A stretch of DNA of 46,709 nucleotides from Clostridia bacterium. Lineage in GTDB: Bacteria; Bacillota; Clostridia; Oscillospirales; CAG-272. The notes under the pieces were generated by a model. That model saw only the letters and a list, made by a program, of their open reading frames with translations, did not search any database and was not told where the DNA came from. The stretch covers positions 1-46,709 of the forward strand of contig JAFTPV010000002.1 in the NCBI GenBank assembly GCA_017463125.1. The letters are read 5' to 3'. Below, in pieces: positions 13,633 to 30,614 of this stretch. How positions within the stretch are numbered: the stretch's first letter is position 1; the number at the start of each line of letters is the position of its first letter. Position numbers and translations under genes: made by a program.

Positions 13633-13708
13633 GCCCCTGTAGCTCAGTTGGTAGAGCACTTGACTTTTAATCAAGGTGTCCGGGATTCGAGTTCCCGCAG
13701 GAGCACCA
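13633..13708 (+). tRNA. tRNA-Lys (anticodon TTT), CCA encoded
   Basis: All arms can be drawn: acceptor GCCCCTG/CAGGAGC, D-arm GCTC-AGTTGGTA-GAGC, anticodon stem CTTGA/TCAAG with loop CTTTTAA (anticodon TTT, lysine), variable GTGTC, T-arm CGGGA-TTCGAGT-TCCCG, discriminator A and encoded CCA. 76 bases. The only flaw is a C-A mismatch at acceptor position 3-70 (13635/13702); every other pair is Watson-Crick. Confidence 0.95.
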
Positions 13709-14541: not shown

Positions 14542-15318
14542 TTAATTCAACTCGATTATCTTAGGCATACCAATATAATTTAATTTATATCTTCTAACAA
14601 GCCATTCCGCGACAGAGAGCGACTTCTCATCGAAAGCATCAATAGGATCGTGCGCGTCACAACCAAACGTCACGGGACACTGTGCCTCGCCTGCGATCTC
14701 CCAAAATTTCGGGTTAGGGTAGTGACGCCCCTTTCTTATGCCAAGGAAGTTAATTTCCAGAGGGATTCCGCTTTGCTTTGATACCTCGCATATTCTAGAC
14801 ATCTCTTTACGGAAAATATTATCGTTACCGACAAAGTTAATAATATCCGGGTGTGCAACGTAAGTAAAAACACCGCTGTCAACAGCACTGCAAACACAGT
14901 CGACATATCTTGAAAGTAGCTCCTCGGAGTCCGTCTTTTTCGTCGAAGCGTAAGTGTCCGGATGCTCGTTTCCTATATAGTGCTGACCGAGAATTAGGTA
15001 TTCTGCCCCGATGTTTTTCGCGTTTTTGAGCATTTTTTCAAAATGTTCGGGATAATACTCCATCTCAAAGCCAATTTTGATTTCGATTTTATCCTTATAC
15101 TTTTCCCGTATTGAGCCGAGGCTGTCAAAGTAGCTTTGAATATCCTGCGTCTTGACTCTGTAATGCGATTCGTACCCATCAGGAAACACAAAAGGCGCGT
15201 GGTCAGAAAAGCCCATATATTTTATTCCACCGTTTATGGCTCGGATAACGTAGTCCTCATCCTCGCCTGTCGCATGTCCGCACCGATATGTGTGGGCGTG
15301 ATAATTGTAGTTCATCAT
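14542..15318 (-). CDS. PHP-family phosphatase, histidinol-phosphatase paralogue
   Basis: 258 residues, same family as the his-operon HisK: YHAHTYRCGHA, GFSDHAPFV, GFEMEYY, GQHYIG, VAHPDIIN and FGCDAHDP carry the expected metal ligands. Its ATG overlaps the TGA of tyrS, so expression is coupled to tyrosyl-tRNA synthetase and falls under the Tyr T-box. As a full his operon with its own hisK is present nearby, this copy may use another phosphate ester; the substrate is unknown. Confidence 0.85.
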   Translation of the reverse strand: MMNYNYHAHTYRCGHATGEDEDYVIRAINGGIKYMGFSDHAPFVFPDGYESHYRVKTQDIQSYFDSLGSIREKYKDKIEIKIGFEMEYYPEHFEKMLKNAKNIGAEYLILGQHYIGNEHPDTYASTKKTDSEELLSRYVDCVCSAVDSGVFTYVAHPDIINFVGNDNIFRKEMSRICEVSKQSGIPLEINFLGIRKGRHYPNPKFWEIAGEAQCPVTFGCDAHDPIDAFDEKSLSVAEWLVRRYKLNYIGMPKIIELN

Positions 15319-16565
15319 TTATTCATCAGCTCGTCGTAGCTGATGGTGTAAACTACCTTCATATAGGACTTCTTACCCTTACGCAGAAGCTTACCGTCCG
15401 CAAGCTCTTCCTTCGTGAAGTAGGTCTTTATATCAGCGACTTTCTCACCGTCAACCGAAACACCGCCCTGCTGTACCGCCTGACGAGCCTCTGACTTGGA
15501 TTTGCAGAGCCCGCTCTTGACAAGCATTGTGAGAATATCCGTCTTACCCTCAATATAGAAGTCCTCGTCTGCCATCTCTACTGTAGGAGCATCAGCCTCG
15601 CCACCCGCACCGAAGAGCGCCTTTGCCTGCTCCTGAGCCTTGTTTGCCTCATCCTCACCGTGAACAAGCTTTGTCAGCTCGTATGCAAGAATCTCCTTTG
15701 CGGTGTTGAGCTGCGCGCCCTCCCAAGAGTCCATCTTATCAATCTCCTCGAGGGGCAGGAACGTCAGCATTCTTATGCATTTAAGAACGTCAGCGTCGCC
15801 AACGTTTCTCCAGTACTGATAGAAGTCGTAGGGAGATGTCTTGTTCGGGTCGAGCCAAACGGCGCCCGATGCAGTTTTACCCATCTTCTTACCCTCGGAG
15901 TTTAAGAGCAGGGTAATTGTCATAGCGTGTGCGTCCTTGCCGAGCTTACGTCTGATAAGCTCCGTACCGCCAAGCATATTCGACCACTGGTCATCACCGC
16001 CAAACTGCATATTACAGCCGTATTCTCTGAAGAGATGATAGAAGTCGTAGGACTGCATTATCATATAGTTAAATTCAAGGAAGGAGAGTCCCTTTTCCAT
16101 TCTCTGCTTGTAGCACTCTGCCGAGAGCATTCTGTTTACGGAGAAGCAGGCGCCAACCTCGCGCAGCACCTCAACGTAGTTGAGTCCGAGAAGCCAGTCC
16201 GCATTATTTACCATAATAGCCTTACCTTCGCCAAAGTCGATGAATCTTTCCATCTGCACCTTAAAGCAGTCGCAGTTGTGCTGAATGGTCTCTCTTGTCA
16301 TCATCTGGCGCATATCCGTTCTTCCCGAGGGGTCACCGACCATAGCCGTACCGCCGCCGATAAGGACAACAGGCTTGTTACCCGCCATCTGTAAGCGCTT
16401 CATAAGGCAAAGCGCCATAAAGTGACCAACGTGCAGCGAGTCTGCCGTAGGGTCAAATCCGATGTAGAAGGTTGCCTTTCCGTTATTTATCATTTCTTTG
16501 ATTTCTTCTTCATTCGTTACCTGCGCGATAAGCCCACGCGCAACAAGCTCTTCGTAAATTTTCAT
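15315..16565 (-). CDS. tyrS: Tyrosyl-tRNA synthetase
   Basis: 416-residue class I aminoacyl-tRNA synthetase. The HIGH-type signature is HVGH in SLHVGHFMAL (about residue 45), the tyrosine-binding segments are IGGGTAMVGDPSGR and FGGDDQWSNML, the KMSKS-type loop is KKMGKTASG, and the C-terminus carries an S4-like RNA-binding domain (LVKSGLCKSKSEARQAVQQGGVSVDG). It is preceded by AAGGAG and a T-box leader and is coupled to the PHP gene after it. Confidence 0.97.
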   Translation of the reverse strand: MKIYEELVARGLIAQVTNEEEIKEMINNGKATFYIGFDPTADSLHVGHFMALCLMKRLQMAGNKPVVLIGGGTAMVGDPSGRTDMRQMMTRETIQHNCDCFKVQMERFIDFGEGKAIMVNNADWLLGLNYVEVLREVGACFSVNRMLSAECYKQRMEKGLSFLEFNYMIMQSYDFYHLFREYGCNMQFGGDDQWSNMLGGTELIRRKLGKDAHAMTITLLLNSEGKKMGKTASGAVWLDPNKTSPYDFYQYWRNVGDADVLKCIRMLTFLPLEEIDKMDSWEGAQLNTAKEILAYELTKLVHGEDEANKAQEQAKALFGAGGEADAPTVEMADEDFYIEGKTDILTMLVKSGLCKSKSEARQAVQQGGVSVDGEKVADIKTYFTKEELADGKLLRKGKKSYMKVVYTISYDELMNK

Positions 16566-16890
16566 AATCTATCTCCTTAAAATTATTAACTAATAAAAAA
16601 CGTCCTCGGACAAAAGCCCAAGGACGCATAAAAACGTGGTACCACCTTGATTTGCAGAAATAATGCACAAAAAACGTATAGGACGGCGCCTCGACATCCT
16701 GTGAAAAAATATCTGCCTCAAAATTGCTATAACGGGCTTACCCGTCGCAGCCTACACACCGCAAAAAAGCGGCTTCGGTGCGCGCTCAAAGACGTATTCA
16801 CTGTAAAAACTCACGCGCCTCTCATCACCCGGCAGCTTTCTGTTTTACGTTTTTTACAGCTACTTGCTCTTCTCATAACTTTATTTACTT
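16566..16890 (-). promoter_or_regulatory. T-box leader, tyrosine-specific
   Basis: The leader on the minus strand contains the hallmark T-box sequence AAGGTGGTACCACG (plus 16635-16648). It is followed by an intrinsic terminator, arms 16616-16626 and 16601-16611 with an A4/T4 loop and a T6 run (16595-16600). A candidate specifier TAC (Tyr) lies in GTGAATACGTC (plus 16794-16796), in the right place for Stem I. By the known T-box mechanism, uncharged tRNA-Tyr would favour the antiterminator and switch on tyrS and the PHP gene. Specifier choice is by context. Confidence 0.92.
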
Positions 16891-18318: not shown

Positions 18319-18347
18319 TTGACATTCGAGTAACAATGTGCTAAAAT
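18319..18347 (+). promoter_or_regulatory. Promoter of the first BspA-type gene
   Basis: TTGACA (18319-18324), 17 bases, TAAAAT (18342-18347); transcription should start near 18354, leaving a leader of about 250 bases. Confidence 0.85.
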
Positions 18348-18354
18348 GTATTTG

Positions 18355-18602
18355 CCAAACGAATTCAATATTTTTATGTATGGGTGTTTTTTATCCTTAA
18401 GGGGATATTATACCCCTTTTCGCATATCATAACTAGGCAAATTTGCATAGGTAAAAATGCAAACTCCTGCCTTGTTTATGATATAATATACTCATACAAC
18501 ATTGAATTTGTTTGGCGACAATTGGAGTCTTGCGTTTTTCGGTGCGGCGACTTCGGTTGCCGCATCTTTTATTTTTCACCGAAAAGAAAAGGAGAAAAAC
18601 AA
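18355..18602 (+). promoter_or_regulatory. Structured leader RNA of BspA-type gene 1 (candidate new attenuator/riboswitch)
   Basis: In order: AAGGGG-ATATTATA-CCCCTT hairpin (18399-18418); a compound hairpin with arms ATATCATAA (18424-18432)/TTATGATAT (18476-18484) and AGGCA/TGCCT, and an inner stem TTTGCAT/ATGCAAA (18442-18448/18457-18463) with loop AGGTAAAA; the segment GGCGACAATTGGAGTCTTGC (18514-18533), whose GGAGTCTTGCGTT can pair with ATGCAAACTCC; then GCGGCGAC-TTCG-GTTGCCGC (18544-18563) followed by ATCTTTTATTTTT, a terminator-like hairpin with a cUUCGg loop. The AAGGAG site comes just after. The leader at 30326-30580 has the same blocks and compensatory arms. Confidence 0.8.
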
Positions 18603-21500
18603 ATGAAAAAGACTATGCGAAAAATTTTTCCCATCATTGCTTGCATTCTCGTGCTGCTGATAGGTCTTGTTGCCTGTGAGATAAACGGTGACAAGAGCAA
18701 CGTAAGCAATGAAAAAAATCTGATTGCCGTAAGGGTTGAAGGCTCTCCGATAGAGGTTTATGTAGGAGAAGCCTTTGAAGCAAAAAATCTTACGGTACAT
18801 CTTGATTACGATGACGGAACAACAGAAGCGGTAAAATTTACCGAAGAGGATCTTCCCGAGGAGTATATCCCTCTTTTAAGCATTGTCGGTGAACACACGG
18901 TAGAAATGCTTTACCGAGGTTTCGACATCTCTTTCACGATAATTGTGAAAGAACCGCCCCTTTTGGTTAGATTCTTTAACTGTCTTGACGAGATCGTAAA
19001 GGAAGAGTATGTTGACTACGGAGCGTCGGCAACAGCGCCCACTGACGAGGAAATGTACGTTGAAGGGTATCACTTCACGGGCCAATTTGATAAGGACTTT
19101 TCAAACGTAACGGAGAATATGGACGTTTACGGCATTTATGAGCAGCTTTATACGGTAAAGTTTTACAATGCAGTAAACGAAGTTGTGAAAAGCGTGACTG
19201 TCGTTTCCGGAGCTGCGGCAGAAGCGCCCAATAACGAGCAAATGTACGTTGAGGGCTATCACTTTACGGGCGAATTTGATAAGGACTTTTCAAACGTAAC
19301 GGAGAATATGGACGTTCACGGTATTTATGAAAAGCTCTTTAAGGTTGAATTCTTTAACGGTAAAAGTGAACTTATTTCTACACAGTACGCTAAGCTCGGT
19401 GAGGATGCCACAGAGCCTACCGAGGAGCAAAGAGCTATGGAAGGCTATGTCTGGAAATCGTGGGATAACTCTTTTACTAATATACAAAAGGATACAAAGG
19501 TCTACGGCATATATGCTAAAGCCTATACAATAATCTATTCCAGCGAGGACGAAAATAAGGGTACCGTCAGCGGAAACGTTGCAAGCGGCAGCGCTATTAT
19601 ACTAGGAACTAATATAACTCTTGCAGCCGAAGCTAAAGAGGGCTACACCTTTAACGGCTGGTATATGAGCGACGAGCTTGTGTCTGACGAAGCAGAATAC
19701 TCCTTCACAGCCCTCGCAAAAAACTATACCTTTGTCGCAAAGTTTGACGAGAATGAAGTTGAAAACGTAGCCGGACTTTATGACGCAAACGACAATCTTG
19801 TAGCTTCTTGGGAAACCCTCGTTAATATTTACGGTATGGATGTTGTCACTGATTATACTTATTCTAATTTAAAAACAAGTACGTCATCACCCTATTACAT
19901 ATTAAATAACAATGCGGAACTTAATTCCGGTGTTAAATTGGTTATAGATAAAAGCATTGAGCATATAGGCGCACATGCGTTCGCTGATTGTGACAACCTT
20001 ATAAGCGTAGTGATAGGGGAGGGTGTAACAAGCATAGGCGATTCTGCATTCATATTCTGCACTTCTTTGACGAGTGTAAAAATAGGAAACGGCGTAACAA
20101 GCATAGGTGATTACGCGTTCAGATTTTGCGATTCTTTGCTAAGCCTAATGATACCTAACAATGTAACAAATATAGGCTATTATTCTTTTAATCAGTGCAA
20201 CTCTCTTGAAAACATAACTGTAGATGATAATAATATATCATACAAATCTATAGATGGTAACCTATATAAAATAAATAGGGACAGTGCAACTCTCACATTA
20301 GTACAATACGCAATAGGAAAAACGGATACTTCTTTTGCAATTCCCTATAGTGTAACAAGCATAGACGAAGGGGCGTTTTGGGGTTGCACTTCTCTGACAA
20401 GTGTAACAATAGGAAATGGAGTAATGCGTATAGGTGAAGATGCTTTCTATTATTGCAGATCTTTAACAAATGCAACAATTCCTAATAGCGTAACAAGCAT
20501 AGGGGGAGGAGCATTTTATTATTGTGACTCTATGACAAGTGTAACAGTAGGAGATGGAGTAACAAGCATAGGGGGAGGGGCATTCTCGAATTGCAACTCT
20601 TTGACAAGTGTATATATTACCGACCTAGCAAGATGGTGTCAAATAAGCTTCGAGGATAGCAGTGCAAACCCCTTAAATGCGGCAAAAAATCTTTACCTTG
20701 ATGGAGAACTTGTAACTAAACTTATAATTCCTGACAACGTAATTAGTATAAGTGATTATGCGTTCCATTATTGCAAATCTTTAACAAGCGTAACAATCTC
20801 TAATAGTATAACAAATATAGGCGAAGCTGCGTTCAGATTTTGCACCTCTCTGACAAGTGTAACAATAGGAAACAGTGTAAAAAACATAGGTACCGCCGCG
20901 TTCCTTAGTTGTACATCACTAACAAGCATAACGATACCGAGTAGCGTGACAAGCATAGGCTATCTTGCGTTTGGTACATGTGAATCTCTGACAAATATAA
21001 TAGTCGATACAGGAAACTCGACACATAAATCAATAGATAACAACCTCTATAGAATTAACGAGGATGGGAAAACTCTGACTTTAGTACAGTATGCTATTGG
21101 TAAACAGGATACGAGTTTTACAATCCCAGATAACGTAACAAACATAGGTGAACGAGCATTCTATCATTGTGACTATTTGAGAAGCATAACTATCTCGAAT
21201 AGCGTAACAAGTATAGCCGAAGAGGCGTTCTCTTTTTGTTACGTTCTGTCAAGTGTAACAATACCAAATAGCGTAATAAGGATAGGCAAAGATGCGTTTT
21301 ATCATTGCAGATTTCTTACAAGCGTAACAATCGGAAATGGTGTAACAAACATAGGCAATAATGCGTTCGCCTATTGCGACTCTCTTAATAACGTTTACTA
21401 CACCGGCACGGAGGAAGCGTGGACTGCAATTACAATCGGCACGAACAACGCTCCTCTCACAAATGCCACAATTCATTACAATTACACTCCCGAGGAATAA
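18603..21500 (+). CDS. BspA-type leucine-rich-repeat lipoprotein with InlB-like repeats
   Basis: 965 residues from the ATG at 18603 (AAGGAG 6 bases upstream; the open frame reaches back to 18384 through the leader). The N-terminal MKKTMRKIFPIIACILVLL is a lipoprotein signal with lipobox LVAC. Then a bacterial Ig-like domain (about 45-115), three InlB/Listeria-Bacteroides-type repeats (about 120-310), a divergent InlB-B-like domain with GYTFNGWY (about 315-385), and about 20 BspA/LRR_5 units of about 23 residues (SVTIGNGVTSIGDYAF...C.SL). It ends ATIHYNYTPEE. Predicted surface adhesin or binding protein, ligand unknown. Confidence 0.88.
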   Translation: MKKTMRKIFPIIACILVLLIGLVACEINGDKSNVSNEKNLIAVRVEGSPIEVYVGEAFEAKNLTVHLDYDDGTTEAVKFTEEDLPEEYIPLLSIVGEHTVEMLYRGFDISFTIIVKEPPLLVRFFNCLDEIVKEEYVDYGASATAPTDEEMYVEGYHFTGQFDKDFSNVTENMDVYGIYEQLYTVKFYNAVNEVVKSVTVVSGAAAEAPNNEQMYVEGYHFTGEFDKDFSNVTENMDVHGIYEKLFKVEFFNGKSELISTQYAKLGEDATEPTEEQRAMEGYVWKSWDNSFTNIQKDTKVYGIYAKAYTIIYSSEDENKGTVSGNVASGSAIILGTNITLAAEAKEGYTFNGWYMSDELVSDEAEYSFTALAKNYTFVAKFDENEVENVAGLYDANDNLVASWETLVNIYGMDVVTDYTYSNLKTSTSSPYYILNNNAELNSGVKLVIDKSIEHIGAHAFADCDNLISVVIGEGVTSIGDSAFIFCTSLTSVKIGNGVTSIGDYAFRFCDSLLSLMIPNNVTNIGYYSFNQCNSLENITVDDNNISYKSIDGNLYKINRDSATLTLVQYAIGKTDTSFAIPYSVTSIDEGAFWGCTSLTSVTIGNGVMRIGEDAFYYCRSLTNATIPNSVTSIGGGAFYYCDSMTSVTVGDGVTSIGGGAFSNCNSLTSVYITDLARWCQISFEDSSANPLNAAKNLYLDGELVTKLIIPDNVISISDYAFHYCKSLTSVTISNSITNIGEAAFRFCTSLTSVTIGNSVKNIGTAAFLSCTSLTSITIPSSVTSIGYLAFGTCESLTNIIVDTGNSTHKSIDNNLYRINEDGKTLTLVQYAIGKQDTSFTIPDNVTNIGERAFYHCDYLRSITISNSVTSIAEEAFSFCYVLSSVTIPNSVIRIGKDAFYHCRFLTSVTIGNGVTNIGNNAFAYCDSLNNVYYTGTEEAWTAITIGTNNAPLTNATIHYNYTPEE
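19052..19330 (+). repeat. Near-identical InlB-like coding repeat pair
   Basis: The stretch starting AATGTACGTTGA at 19052 recurs at 19241 (period 189 bases, 63 residues), with only a few mostly silent changes over about 90 bases. This points to recent internal duplication or gene conversion. Confidence 0.8.
19940..21400 (+). repeat. BspA LRR_5 coding repeats
   Basis: About 20 units of roughly 69 bases (23 residues), each with a core like AGCGTAACAAGCATAGGNGA..GCGTTC...TGC..TCTTTGACAAGTGTAAC in varied form. Two longer non-repeat inserts (ENITVDDNNISYKSIDGNLY type) interrupt the array. Confidence 0.85.
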
Positions 21501-28435: not shown

Positions 28436-30325
28436 TTATGGTGTATAGTTATAGTGCATAGTAGCGGAAATAAGATTGTCGTGAGTATTACCGAAAGAAG
28501 CGGGATTATTACGAATTTCAACTTTTGACCATTGCTCCTCTGTTCCGGCGTAGTAGACATCAGCAAGCTTGGGACAGCTATAGAATGTTTCACCGTAAAT
28601 AATCGTAATGCTAACAGGAATTGTTATGCTTGCGAGGCTTGCGCAATTGTAGAACGCCCTGTTTTTAATAGATGTAACACTTGAAGGAATTACTATACTT
28701 GTAAGACTATAGCAATCCGAAAAAGCAGATTGACCGATAACGGTAACGTTATTTCCGATTACAACGTGTGTAAGATTTTCACAATACTCGAAAGTCGCTT
28801 CACGAATAATTTTAATACTGTCGGGAATTGTTATGCTTGCTAGATTGTCGCAACTGTAGAACGCGGATTCTCCAATTGATGTAACACTATTCGGTATCGA
28901 TACGCTTGCAAGATTTGCACAGTATGCGAAAGCATAATCTCCAATAGTTGTAACGCTATCCGGAATTGTGAAATTGGTATCTTCTTTTCCGATAGCATAT
29001 TGTATCAGAACTTTATCGTCTTTTGTATATAGATTTCCATCTATAGACTTGTATACGGTATTATTATTTCCAACTGTTATATTTTCAAGGCTACCGCAAG
29101 CGTTGAATGCCTTGTCACCAATACTCGTCACGCCGCTGGGGATTGTTATGCTTGAGAGTTGATCGCAACTGTAGAACGCACGATAACCAATACTCGTCAC
29201 GCCGTCGGGGATTGTTATGCTTGAAAGCATATTGCAACCTGCGAACGCATTATTACCAATATTCGTCACACTATCGGGGATTTTAATTGCGACGTGTGTA
29301 GTGCAGCCGCCAAATGCAGAATCTGCAATTGTTTTAACACCGTTTTTTATAGTAACTCTATGTTCTCCTGTACTGAATTTTCCTGCCTCAATTAAATGAT
29401 TTCCAATATAGAGAACTCCGTCATTATCCCAATTATTTTCATAATCATTATAATATGCAGTACCTACAAACGCCCATTCACCAATGCTGATGACACTATC
29501 CGGTATCGTTATGTTTTTAAGTGCTTTGCAATCATTGAATGCGTAACCTTCTATAATTTTAACACTGTCGGGTATGACAACGTCGGTAAGTCCGGCACAA
29601 TCATCAAACGCGTTACTTGCGATAGTAATAGTACCCTCTTTTATATTGCATTCACCGGATATAGTATCCCGTGCCTCGATCAAGTGCTTACCAACGTAAA
29701 GAACGTCGTTTTCCCAGTTGTTATCGTCGTTGTAATATGCGGTACCGATCAACATACTGCTATTGATACCTGTAACGCTGTCGGGTATAGTTATGTCGGC
29801 AAGTGAGCTGCAATCAGAGAACGCTTCGTAACCAATACTCGTAACGCCGTCCGGTATCGTTATGCTTTCAAGTGATTTACAATCGGAGAAAGCATTACTA
29901 CCAATGCTGGTAAGTTGGCTGTTTTCTCCAAATGTTATGCTAGTGAGGCTTTCACATTTCTCGAATGCGTAATCACAAATGGTGGTAACGCTTTCGGGAA
30001 TTATTATACTTGAAAAAATATTGTGGCTGAATGCTTTTTCGTCAATCCCTGTGACTATATCACCTTCCGGAGACGTAGAGGGGATTACAACTTCTCCTAA
30101 CCAAATTTCGCAGTTACTAACATAGCAAGTTCCGTCGCCGTTTGATTTGAATTCCATGTAGCACCCAAATAACAGGATGTCAAGCAAAATGGCGCCTACC
30201 AAAAGCAAAATAACACCTGCGATTGCTGATAAGATTATAATCGTCTTTTTAGATAAGGTTTTTTTGCTTTTTTTAGTTTCTCCGATAACGTCATCCACGA
30301 GCTTTTCTTTCTTTTTTTCTTCCAT
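28436..30325 (-). CDS. BspA-type leucine-rich-repeat protein with N-terminal membrane anchor
   Basis: 629 residues. Positively charged N-terminus, then one membrane segment (TIIILSAIAGVILLLVGAIL, about residues 28-47) with no lipobox, then LRR_5/BspA units to the end (ITIPDSVTSIGDYAF...C.SL). Two similar inserts of about 45 residues (GTAYYNDDNNWENDVLYVGKH and a second like it) interrupt the array. The tail VYYAGTEEQW...ATMHYNYTP matches the tail of the other BspA-type protein. It is anchored type II (N-in) rather than a lipoprotein. Ligand unknown; probable surface protein. Confidence 0.87.
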   Translation of the reverse strand: MEEKKKEKLVDDVIGETKKSKKTLSKKTIIILSAIAGVILLLVGAILLDILLFGCYMEFKSNGDGTCYVSNCEIWLGEVVIPSTSPEGDIVTGIDEKAFSHNIFSSIIIPESVTTICDYAFEKCESLTSITFGENSQLTSIGSNAFSDCKSLESITIPDGVTSIGYEAFSDCSSLADITIPDSVTGINSSMLIGTAYYNDDNNWENDVLYVGKHLIEARDTISGECNIKEGTITIASNAFDDCAGLTDVVIPDSVKIIEGYAFNDCKALKNITIPDSVISIGEWAFVGTAYYNDYENNWDNDGVLYIGNHLIEAGKFSTGEHRVTIKNGVKTIADSAFGGCTTHVAIKIPDSVTNIGNNAFAGCNMLSSITIPDGVTSIGYRAFYSCDQLSSITIPSGVTSIGDKAFNACGSLENITVGNNNTVYKSIDGNLYTKDDKVLIQYAIGKEDTNFTIPDSVTTIGDYAFAYCANLASVSIPNSVTSIGESAFYSCDNLASITIPDSIKIIREATFEYCENLTHVVIGNNVTVIGQSAFSDCYSLTSIVIPSSVTSIKNRAFYNCASLASITIPVSITIIYGETFYSCPKLADVYYAGTEEQWSKVEIRNNPASFGNTHDNLISATMHYNYTP

Positions 30326-30580
30326 TTGTCAAAATCCTTCCATGTTGTTATTTTCTTCGGTGAAATTAAAAAGTGTGTACAACCGAAGTCGTACACACCG
30401 AAAAATGCAAACTCCGATTGTTGTCACACAAACTAATCGGATTAGAGCCTTTTTAAGCAAACCTAAATTAGAGGAGCTTGCATCTTTACCAAGTCCTATA
30501 ATTTAGGATTGCCGAAAAAAGGTATAATATCCCCTGTGAAGGAAAAATACCCTAATGCCGATTATTCAGTTCGTGTGACA
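30326..30580 (-). promoter_or_regulatory. Structured leader RNA of BspA-type gene 2 (candidate new attenuator/riboswitch)
   Basis: Read on minus: GGGGATATTATACC (30534-30521) and TTTTTTCG; a compound hairpin with arms CCTAAATTA/TAATTTAGG (plus 30499-30507/30462-30470), AGGA/TCCT and CTTG/CAAG, loop GTAAAGATG; TGTGTGACAAC (30430-30420); GGAGTTTGCAT (30415-30405), complementary to ATGCAAGCTCC in the hairpin; then GTGTGTACGAC-TTCG-GTTGTACACAC (30398-30373) followed by TTTTTAATTT, a terminator-like hairpin; then CACCGAA and the AAGGA site. Blocks and spacing match the leader at 18355-18602, while the helix arms differ with pairing kept. Confidence 0.8.
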
Positions 30581-30585
30581 CGGAT

Positions 30586-30614
30586 ATTATAGCATAAAGA
30601 GTTCAATTTTTCAA
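30586..30614 (-). promoter_or_regulatory. Promoter of BspA-type gene 2
   Basis: Read on minus: TTGAAA (30614-30609), 17 bases, TATAAT (30591-30586). The -35 box lies inside the perfect 11-bp inverted repeat CAATTTTTCAA (30604-30614)/TTGAAAAATTG (30622-30632), which looks like an operator. Confidence 0.75.

Follow-up and report, generated by a model that had tools for sequence, protein, structure and literature searches.

Homologous leaders ahead of two BspA-type genes are members of a large and apparently undescribed family of putative RNA switches in gut Clostridia

The window analyzed here, a stretch of 46,709 nucleotides from a Clostridia bacterium (contig JAFTPV010000002.1), contains two genes for BspA-type repeat proteins, each preceded by a long leader. 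Leader A (18354-18576, forward strand) and leader B (30579-30363, reverse strand) were homologous over their full length. As the sequence-only reading had claimed, the two could be aligned end to end at about the places it had given, with a mean column identity of 79%, and the sequence blocks it had quoted as shared were found in both. The folding z-scores of A and B were -8.14 and -8.12, respectively, and none of 200 dinucleotide shuffles folded as well in either case. The RNA proper stops at the U-tract (around 18576 in A and 30363 in B), short of the start codon, and the genes start 27 bases (A) and 38 bases (B) past the RNA end. Both leaders display the same order of elements. The promoter is followed by P1, P2, a hairpin block that is conserved, and P4, whose tip carries strands h and a; after the return strands come strand b and a terminator with a UUCG loop followed by the U-tract. 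The individual features are as follows.

18319-18347 (+): promoter of A (TTGACA, TAAAAT), from sequence; its spacing to P1 is fixed family-wide
18354-18369 (+): A, P1 5' strand, from the fold and P1 covariation; its first G is the transcription start predicted from the -10 spacing
18378-18385 (+): A, P2 5' strand (GTATGGGT), from sequence and pairing
18401-18416 (+): A, conserved block GGGGATATTATACCCC, hairpin P3 of the long form, from alignments; helix 3 of the long-copy covariation test
18423-18432 (+): A, P4 5' strand, from fold and pairing
18442-18448 (+): A, strand h, local partner of a, from pairing and the swap test
18453-18467 (+): A, strand a (AAAAATGCAAACTCC), 15 bp with b including one bulge, from family tests
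18476-18484 (+): A, P4 3' strand, from fold and pairing
18490-18497 (+): A, P2 3' strand, from pairing
18501-18516 (+): A, P1 3' strand, from fold and pairing
18524-18539 (+): A, strand b, pseudoknot with a and, with a few upstream bases added, antiterminator with c, from swap, column and pairing tests
18543-18564 (+): A, intrinsic terminator c:d with UUCG loop, from pairing and covariation (helix 5 of the long-copy test)
18565-18576 (+): A, U-tract, from sequence
18603-21500 (+): gene behind A, lipoprotein-like protein of 965 aa with BspA-type repeats (Pfam LRR_5, E 4.3e-112; lipoprotein start judged by eye)
30586-30614 (-): promoter of B (TTGAAA, TATAAT), from sequence
30568-30579 (-): B, P1 5' strand, from fold and pairing
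30549-30556 (-): B, P2 5' strand, from pairing
30521-30534 (-): B, conserved block GGGGATATTATACC, from the alignment with A
30499-30512 (-): B, P4 5' strand, from fold and pairing
30491-30497 (-): B, strand h, from pairing
30473-30487 (-): B, strand a (AAAGATGCAAGCTCC), unbroken 15 bp with b (-19.6 kcal/mol)
30457-30470 (-): B, P4 3' strand, from fold and pairing
30441-30448 (-): B, P2 3' strand, from pairing
30423-30434 (-): B, P1 3' strand, from fold and pairing
30401-30415 (-): B, strand b, from pairing
30374-30397 (-): B, intrinsic terminator c:d, from pairing
30363-30373 (-): B, U-tract, from sequence
28436-30325 (-): gene behind B, BspA-type repeat protein of 629 aa (Pfam LRR_5, E 3.3e-121; N-terminal membrane segment judged by eye)

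From a GTG at 18384, the reading frame of the BspA-type gene runs without a stop through most of leader A (18384-18603, +), probably by chance, since the listed ORF behind B begins at its own ATG.

Of the helix arms that the sequence-only reading had described, the compensated pair ATATCATAA/TTATGATAT versus CCTAAATTA/TAATTTAGG was genuine and corresponded to P4, and the second set, GCGG/CCGC versus GTGTGTA/TACACAC, does pair but turned out to be the stem of the intrinsic terminator before the U-tract. Beyond these helices, we identified P1 (18354-18369 with 18501-18516 in A), a pseudoknot, an antiterminator, and a promoter just upstream. The pseudoknot a:b comprises 15 bp (-15.3 kcal/mol in A and -19.6 kcal/mol in B), and b together with a few upstream bases pairs over 15 bp with strand c of the terminator (-16.8 and -14.7 kcal/mol in A and B, respectively). 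Because a:b and b:c use the same b, and b:c and the terminator use the same c, these pairings are mutually exclusive.

A BLASTN search of the own genome with leader A as query detected 13 copies (E ≤ 3e-8, A itself counted), to which covariance models added a short-form copy (C16:22211-22377), giving at least 14. Model R1 was built from 12 long copies and model R2 from 22 copies of a short form (150-200 nt) revealed by the R1 hits; in the own genome, R1 gave 16 matches at E ≤ 0.1, the 14 copies being those listed. The regulon that had been suspected across the genome was borne out by a set of target genes: four BspA-type genes (one of them past a short ORF), four genes for a small, approximately 121-residue membrane protein, two AbrB-like genes and one gene for a 77-residue zinc-ribbon protein (names assigned by eye), with no clear ORF nearby in the remaining three cases. 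Four of the approximately 13 BspA loci of this genome (our grouping of 53 matches; two at contig ends) carry the leader, and none of the other nine was preceded by a listed copy. Behind three of the own-genome copies (L017, L023 and L024, on C9, C13 and C16 at 76 kb), which have no normal target, there lies a related short stretch, one frame of which encodes a peptide like INASS-CRET-K-AP (by eye); two of the three stretches contain ACGCAAGYTC, which resembles strand a, plus a further hairpin. The stretch is possibly a decayed small gene or a trans-acting strand. At another copy (L015), an opposite-strand ORF that resembles an IS200-type transposase lies about 1240 bases behind the leader.

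Run on other Clostridia as well, as the sequence-only reading had proposed, the covariance models yielded many homologues with compensatory changes. At E ≤ 0.1, R1 matched 40 of 59 close genomes: 30 of the 36 that belong to the genus, counting the own genome, and 10 of the 23 from elsewhere in the order. E-values are per genome, so that a few chance matches are expected among 59 genomes at this threshold, and two of the genomes were counted on weak matches (G067, E 0.084; G018, E 0.0051). Weak opposite-strand matches of R1 on real copies were ascribed to inverted repeats and left uncounted. R2 matched 70 of 197 genomes of the order (E ≤ 0.01) and 100 of 391 sampled genomes of the class (E ≤ 0.001), and among 398 genomes drawn from the phylum it matched the own genome only. 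As filters were strict and few candidates were scored per genome (38 in the 59-genome search, 14 in the order, 7 in the class and 7 in the phylum, under stricter filters), the true numbers of genomes may be higher than those given, and the virtual lack of matches beyond the class should be taken with caution. With more candidates scored, all 14 of 14 chosen carriers displayed 7 to 30 matches each at E ≤ 1e-4.

An exact two-block pattern, which proved too strict, recovered nothing beyond A and B when applied to 98 genomes, and a long-form core pattern matched at least 119 stretches in named genomes. Among the 80 matches listed, the titles named Clostridia or groups that we place there, save one that gave only Bacillota, and many referred to gut samples of ruminants, deer or rabbits. 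The listed matches include a named strain, Pumilibacter intestinalis CLA-AA-M10, which we take to be a cultured isolate; its leader (L270:6131-6359) lies ahead of a short membrane protein with CxxC pairs. In viral contigs, one long-form and one short-form core pattern gave no exact matches; divergent copies escape such exact patterns. One membrane protein recurring behind own-genome copies had no relative there. No such leader was named in the titles and abstract openings of the searched literature, which consisted mostly of open papers with supplements outside its scope. The leaders appear to constitute a large, undescribed family of putative RNA switches in gut Clostridia.

The promoter appeared to be an integral part of the module. 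In 139 of 180 copies, the first base of the best -10 hexamer preceded the model start by exactly 9 bases, and a -10 plus -35 of set quality was found in 134 of 180, versus 5 in a downstream control restricted to copies with enough sequence. The start predicted from the -10 spacing falls on the fourth model position, which is the first base of P1 and is G in 171 of the 180. At 12 hand-picked tandem loci with 25 copies lying 34-148 nt apart, a promoter-like site (9 to 12 of 12 letters, -10 at -9) preceded 13 of 13 second or third copies. We know of no riboswitch class with such a fixed link to its promoter.

Compensatory evolution of the predicted helices was assessed on successively larger sets. 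The first 12 copies were enough to reveal double changes at 16 of the 35 predicted pairs. Among 98 long copies, 94.0% of cells paired versus 81.6% after shuffling, and 388 cells showed double changes versus 101.6 (0 of 500 shuffles as high), figures obtained on an alignment fitted to the tested structure. In 54 short copies (alignment A7, likewise fitted), pairing cells amounted to 97.7% for P1 and 99.4% for the terminator, and 10 of the 12 P1 pairs showed double changes. The pseudoknot was tested on the same alignment, whose model structure does not include it: 90.7% of cells paired, with 41 double-change cells versus 18.6 (0 of 500), and the measures were weaker for the number of pairs with double changes (8 versus 5.7; 38 of 500) and for pair types (74 of 500 as high). 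The column test of the antiterminator was weaker. While paired cells (80.9% versus 78.1% shuffled; 0 of 500), double-change cells (29 versus 19.9; 5 of 500) and the covariation score (0.281 versus 0.237; 0 of 500) exceeded the shuffled values, pairs with double changes (7 versus 7.1; 373 of 500) and pair types (27 versus 25.6; 148 of 500) hardly differed from them.

Since insertions blur the alignment columns, we employed a copy-by-copy test in which partner strands were swapped among 171 copies. The z-scores were -19.4 for h:a, -19.5 for a:b and -17.9 for b:c, with none of 2000 permutations as good in each case, and the own pairing was better than the median swap in 153, 159 and 159 of 171 copies, respectively; for h:a in the long form alone, this held for only 48 of 95. 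Pairing of h with the strand behind a, which forms the P4 stem, gave -25.3. The control pairings gave -1.9 (a:c), -1.9 (h:b), -1.7 (P1a:b), +2.5 (a:mid), -3.4 (P1a:c) and -6.2 (a with reversed b), the last indicating that composition or relatedness accounts for some of the swap signal. In 42 copies picked for mutual unlikeness, z-scores were still -9.9 and -8.1, although swapping removes relatedness only in part. As to strength, 169 of 171 parsed copies passed all thresholds set for the pseudoknot (≤ -10 kcal/mol), antiterminator (≤ -12 kcal/mol) and terminator (≤ -8 kcal/mol); when b was dinucleotide-shuffled, 20 of 171 still passed for both b-pairings. These strand-swap and strength tests are consistent with an expression platform of mutually exclusive helices, and the sensor fold is conserved with compensatory changes, as in riboswitches.

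The 180 elements are high-scoring matches and no random sample. L071 (no terminator found) and L133 (no motif) were left out of parsing, L121, L123, L069, the second L072 and L127 were dropped by hand, and L158 and L185 were skipped in the 171-copy swap test. The a-window was re-chosen in four copies; L119 stayed wrong, and L077 was kept although probably mis-picked. The divergent copy L133:534-723 (+) has a pseudoknot lacking the usual A-tract and U-tract, yet GTAGAAATAC pairs with GTATTCTAC there through nine pairs with one bulged A (by eye).

Like riboswitches, most copies occupy the 5' leader of a presumed target gene. By crude ORF calling on 173 copies (seven with less than 500 nt downstream being set aside), a same-strand ORF of at least 30 residues lay within 110 nt in 103 and within 300 nt in a further 28, i.e., 131 of 173 in all; in the others, it lay only beyond 300 nt (16), an opposite-strand gene came first (22), or none was found (4). 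A rule-picked set of 131 first ORFs (at least 45 residues, for the 180 copies, duplicates removed) contained 23 LRR_5 proteins, nine with Listeria-Bacteroides repeats and at most five of any single zinc-ribbon family, as counted with no background comparison. BspA-type genes are thus among the presumed targets, but the class is not BspA-specific. Among the 100 ORFs within 110 nt, 32 were lipoprotein-like, 60 had a hydrophobic N-terminus and 18 had two or more CxxC, versus 28, 98 and 24, respectively, among 463 comparison ORFs from the loci of the long-form pattern search, which include some targets and were scored by the same simple rules rather than a signal-peptide program; among 31 ORFs lying further off, the numbers were 4, 11 and 1. 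The targets are thus enriched in lipoprotein-like and CxxC-rich proteins. A small protein starting with DITGIEL recurs behind copies from several genomes (L034, L083, L100, L108, L112, L128, L182 and L175; by eye), at most of these loci with a cysteine-rich stretch like CLGNGEQGFECCCDECDY. At L057 and L142, from genomes of different families, the short form precedes similar genes for an AMP-binding enzyme; metabolic targets of this kind are unusual here and may offer a clue to the effector.

From the pairings and their evolution, we consider it likely that the leaders are cis-acting transcription attenuators with two states, in which a pseudoknot stabilized by an effector would lower expression. 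Each leader would represent a self-contained cassette of promoter, folded sensor and intrinsic terminator, and a same-strand gene was found behind the cassette in about three quarters of the copies examined. The strands h, a, b, c and d, in this order, would permit two alternative sets of pairings. In the OFF state, a would quit its local hairpin and pair with b just behind P1, forming the pseudoknot; with b held by a, c would be free for d, so that the terminator would form and transcription would stop. In the ON state, a would be kept by h, and the free b would capture c as the antiterminator; with c captured, no terminator would form and the gene would be transcribed. Because b is synthesized before c, an available a would take b first and termination would follow, and an effector holding the pseudoknot would repress. 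In our view, the effector is most probably a small molecule, a protein being the less probable alternative. The sequences document the strands, the mutual exclusion of their pairings and the compensated way in which these have evolved, as well as the promoter and the linkage to genes; that the leaders switch in the cell, in the direction given here and in response to an effector, is what we infer.

The main rival to attenuation, or else a second role beside it, is that the cassettes are genes of a multicopy trans-acting small RNA, whose terminator would be a normal 3' end and whose downstream genes would be reached by leakage only. The -10 at one fixed distance in 139 of 180 copies, the position of P1 at the predicted 5' end, the own promoter-like site of 13 of 13 second or third tandem copies, the opposite-strand gene next in 22 of 173 and the three own-genome copies with no clear target ORF would all suit such an RNA. 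An antiterminator, however, would be superfluous in a free RNA, yet b:c is kept and compensated, even in the 26 copies that we classed as orphans, where it is somewhat weaker (mean -20.8 versus -22.6 kcal/mol, p 0.016); moreover, a same-strand ORF follows within 300 nt in 131 of the 173 copies, and the near ORFs are enriched in lipoprotein-like starts. We thus regard the small-RNA reading as unlikely. An RNA-binding protein that reads the attenuator by holding or opening the pseudoknot would be a sub-case within the likelihood assigned above to attenuation, and we are doubtful of it while granting it some weight: the P1 sequence is kept beyond the need for pairing (A at position 7 in 174 of 180 copies, at 9 in 171 and at 12 in 169) and the targets are diverse, with no single pathway, but the few conserved unpaired letters cluster at the pseudoknot (GG before the A-tract and CAA after P1), which fits a small ligand too.

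Two further explanations were considered. That the leaders are c-di-GMP riboswitches of an unrecognized kind would agree with the control of adhesins by such switches in other Firmicutes, as with the gene of the collagen-binding surface protein CbpA, downstream of a c-di-GMP riboswitch according to PMC7423583. No Rfam match to a c-di-GMP class was found at the elements, however, and GGDEF was missing from 15 of 39 carrier genomes, including the own genome and five congeners (13 of the 15 being at least 90% complete), making c-di-GMP unlikely as the common effector; we consider this explanation very improbable. A phase-variable invertible leader like that of cwpV in Clostridioides difficile (PMC2784873), with the P1 arms as recombination repeats, would account for inverted repeats between promoter and gene, and cwpV shares the terminator and the surface protein. 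Nevertheless, none of 114 sites, as judged by the P1 3' strand and b, had an inverted interior: 90 were forward, six had both motifs, three were flagged as inverted but read as forward with altered letters, and 15 had neither motif. P1 also contains G-U pairs (e.g., 11 U-G at pair 10-157), which are expected of an RNA and unexpected of a DNA repeat and hence argue against inversion, to which we accord next to no probability. A leader-peptide attenuator was not supported, as RBS-preceded short ORFs were present in 18 of 180 leaders, fewer than the shuffled mean of 28.6.

As a tentative extension of the attenuator model, this may be a new class of sensory RNA by which many uncultured gut Clostridia determine their surface coat. 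With the RNA tied to its own promoter, the sensor would begin with the very first base of the transcript, and promoter, sensor and terminator would spread within genomes as one cassette, independently promoted tandems included; the terminated RNA of 150-240 nt may in addition act in trans, for example by binding the b strands of sister leaders. With up to 30 matches per genome, the class would be a numerous orphan attenuator with no Rfam 15 family at the cut-off. It would connect what is probably one signal with BspA repeats, zinc-ribbon proteins and lipoproteins of the surface, in bacteria for which metagenomes are the main source of knowledge. A search for the effector would therefore be a direct route to what these bacteria sense, and the presence of a leader in the named strain P. 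intestinalis CLA-AA-M10 renders the class testable. The five-strand relay would also be a clear natural example of how sequence alone can reveal an expression platform, since both b and c have evolved in a compensated manner with two partners each.

Comparison with known RNAs was in good agreement with the view that these are structured leaders of the cis-regulatory type outside the known classes. Rfam 15 scans of the window, 20 loci and 20 further loci gave no family at the gathering cut-off over an element, many homologues were found, and their changes were compensatory; thus, none of the three outcomes named beforehand against the proposal (no homologues, an Rfam match, uncompensated copies) occurred. 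The overlaps below the cut-off were at chance level, namely Phe_leader (29.2 bits, cut-off 55) and, on the other strand, ylbH (28.4, cut-off 50) in L060, and SNORA57 (21.1, cut-off 40) in L018. A tRNA gene was located in the window at 13633-13705 (+; 68.2 bits). Gut-1 RNA (RF01706) is likewise a structured RNA of gut bacteria, and its model was unmatched at the elements in the scans made. Gut-1 itself scored above the cut-off at L060:990-1064 and L040:2130-2199, about 0.6 and 1.1 kb, respectively, from the copies at these loci, and each locus has a second, weaker match adjoining on the other strand.

The candidate motifs of comparative screens, which covered 26 bacterial genomes, 50 bacterial genomes and the human microbiome, were found by the same logic, and some motifs of the 50-genome screen combine a terminator with an antiterminator pairing. 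The main texts of PMC8632094, PMC11109978 and PMC8040213 contain none of the terms "leucine-rich", "surface protein" (or "surface") and "lipoprotein", and their supplements could include an unnamed listing. With respect to individual classes, the leaders resemble c-di-GMP-I/-II riboswitches in the presumed control of surface proteins and, for class II, in having a pseudoknot, and differ from them in the missing Rfam match and in the absence of GGDEF from 15 of 39 carriers. T-box leaders (RF00230) are long attenuator leaders in Clostridia with competing terminator and antiterminator, like the leaders described here. The T-box model gave no match at A or B, and the same scan matched a true T-box in the window at 16617-16885 (-; 94.9 bits, cut-off 93), upstream of ORFs 15315-16565 and 14542-15318 (-). 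The fluoride riboswitch (RF01734) has a much smaller aptamer, and its targets are fluoride exporters. From this riboswitch, the leaders differ in having no Rfam match, a length of 150-240 nt, a five-strand relay, a built-in promoter, and surface or membrane proteins as targets. The likeness lies in its transcriptional form, in which, according to PMC13273304, the sensor and the terminator base exchange a strand of the pseudoknot, as proposed here.
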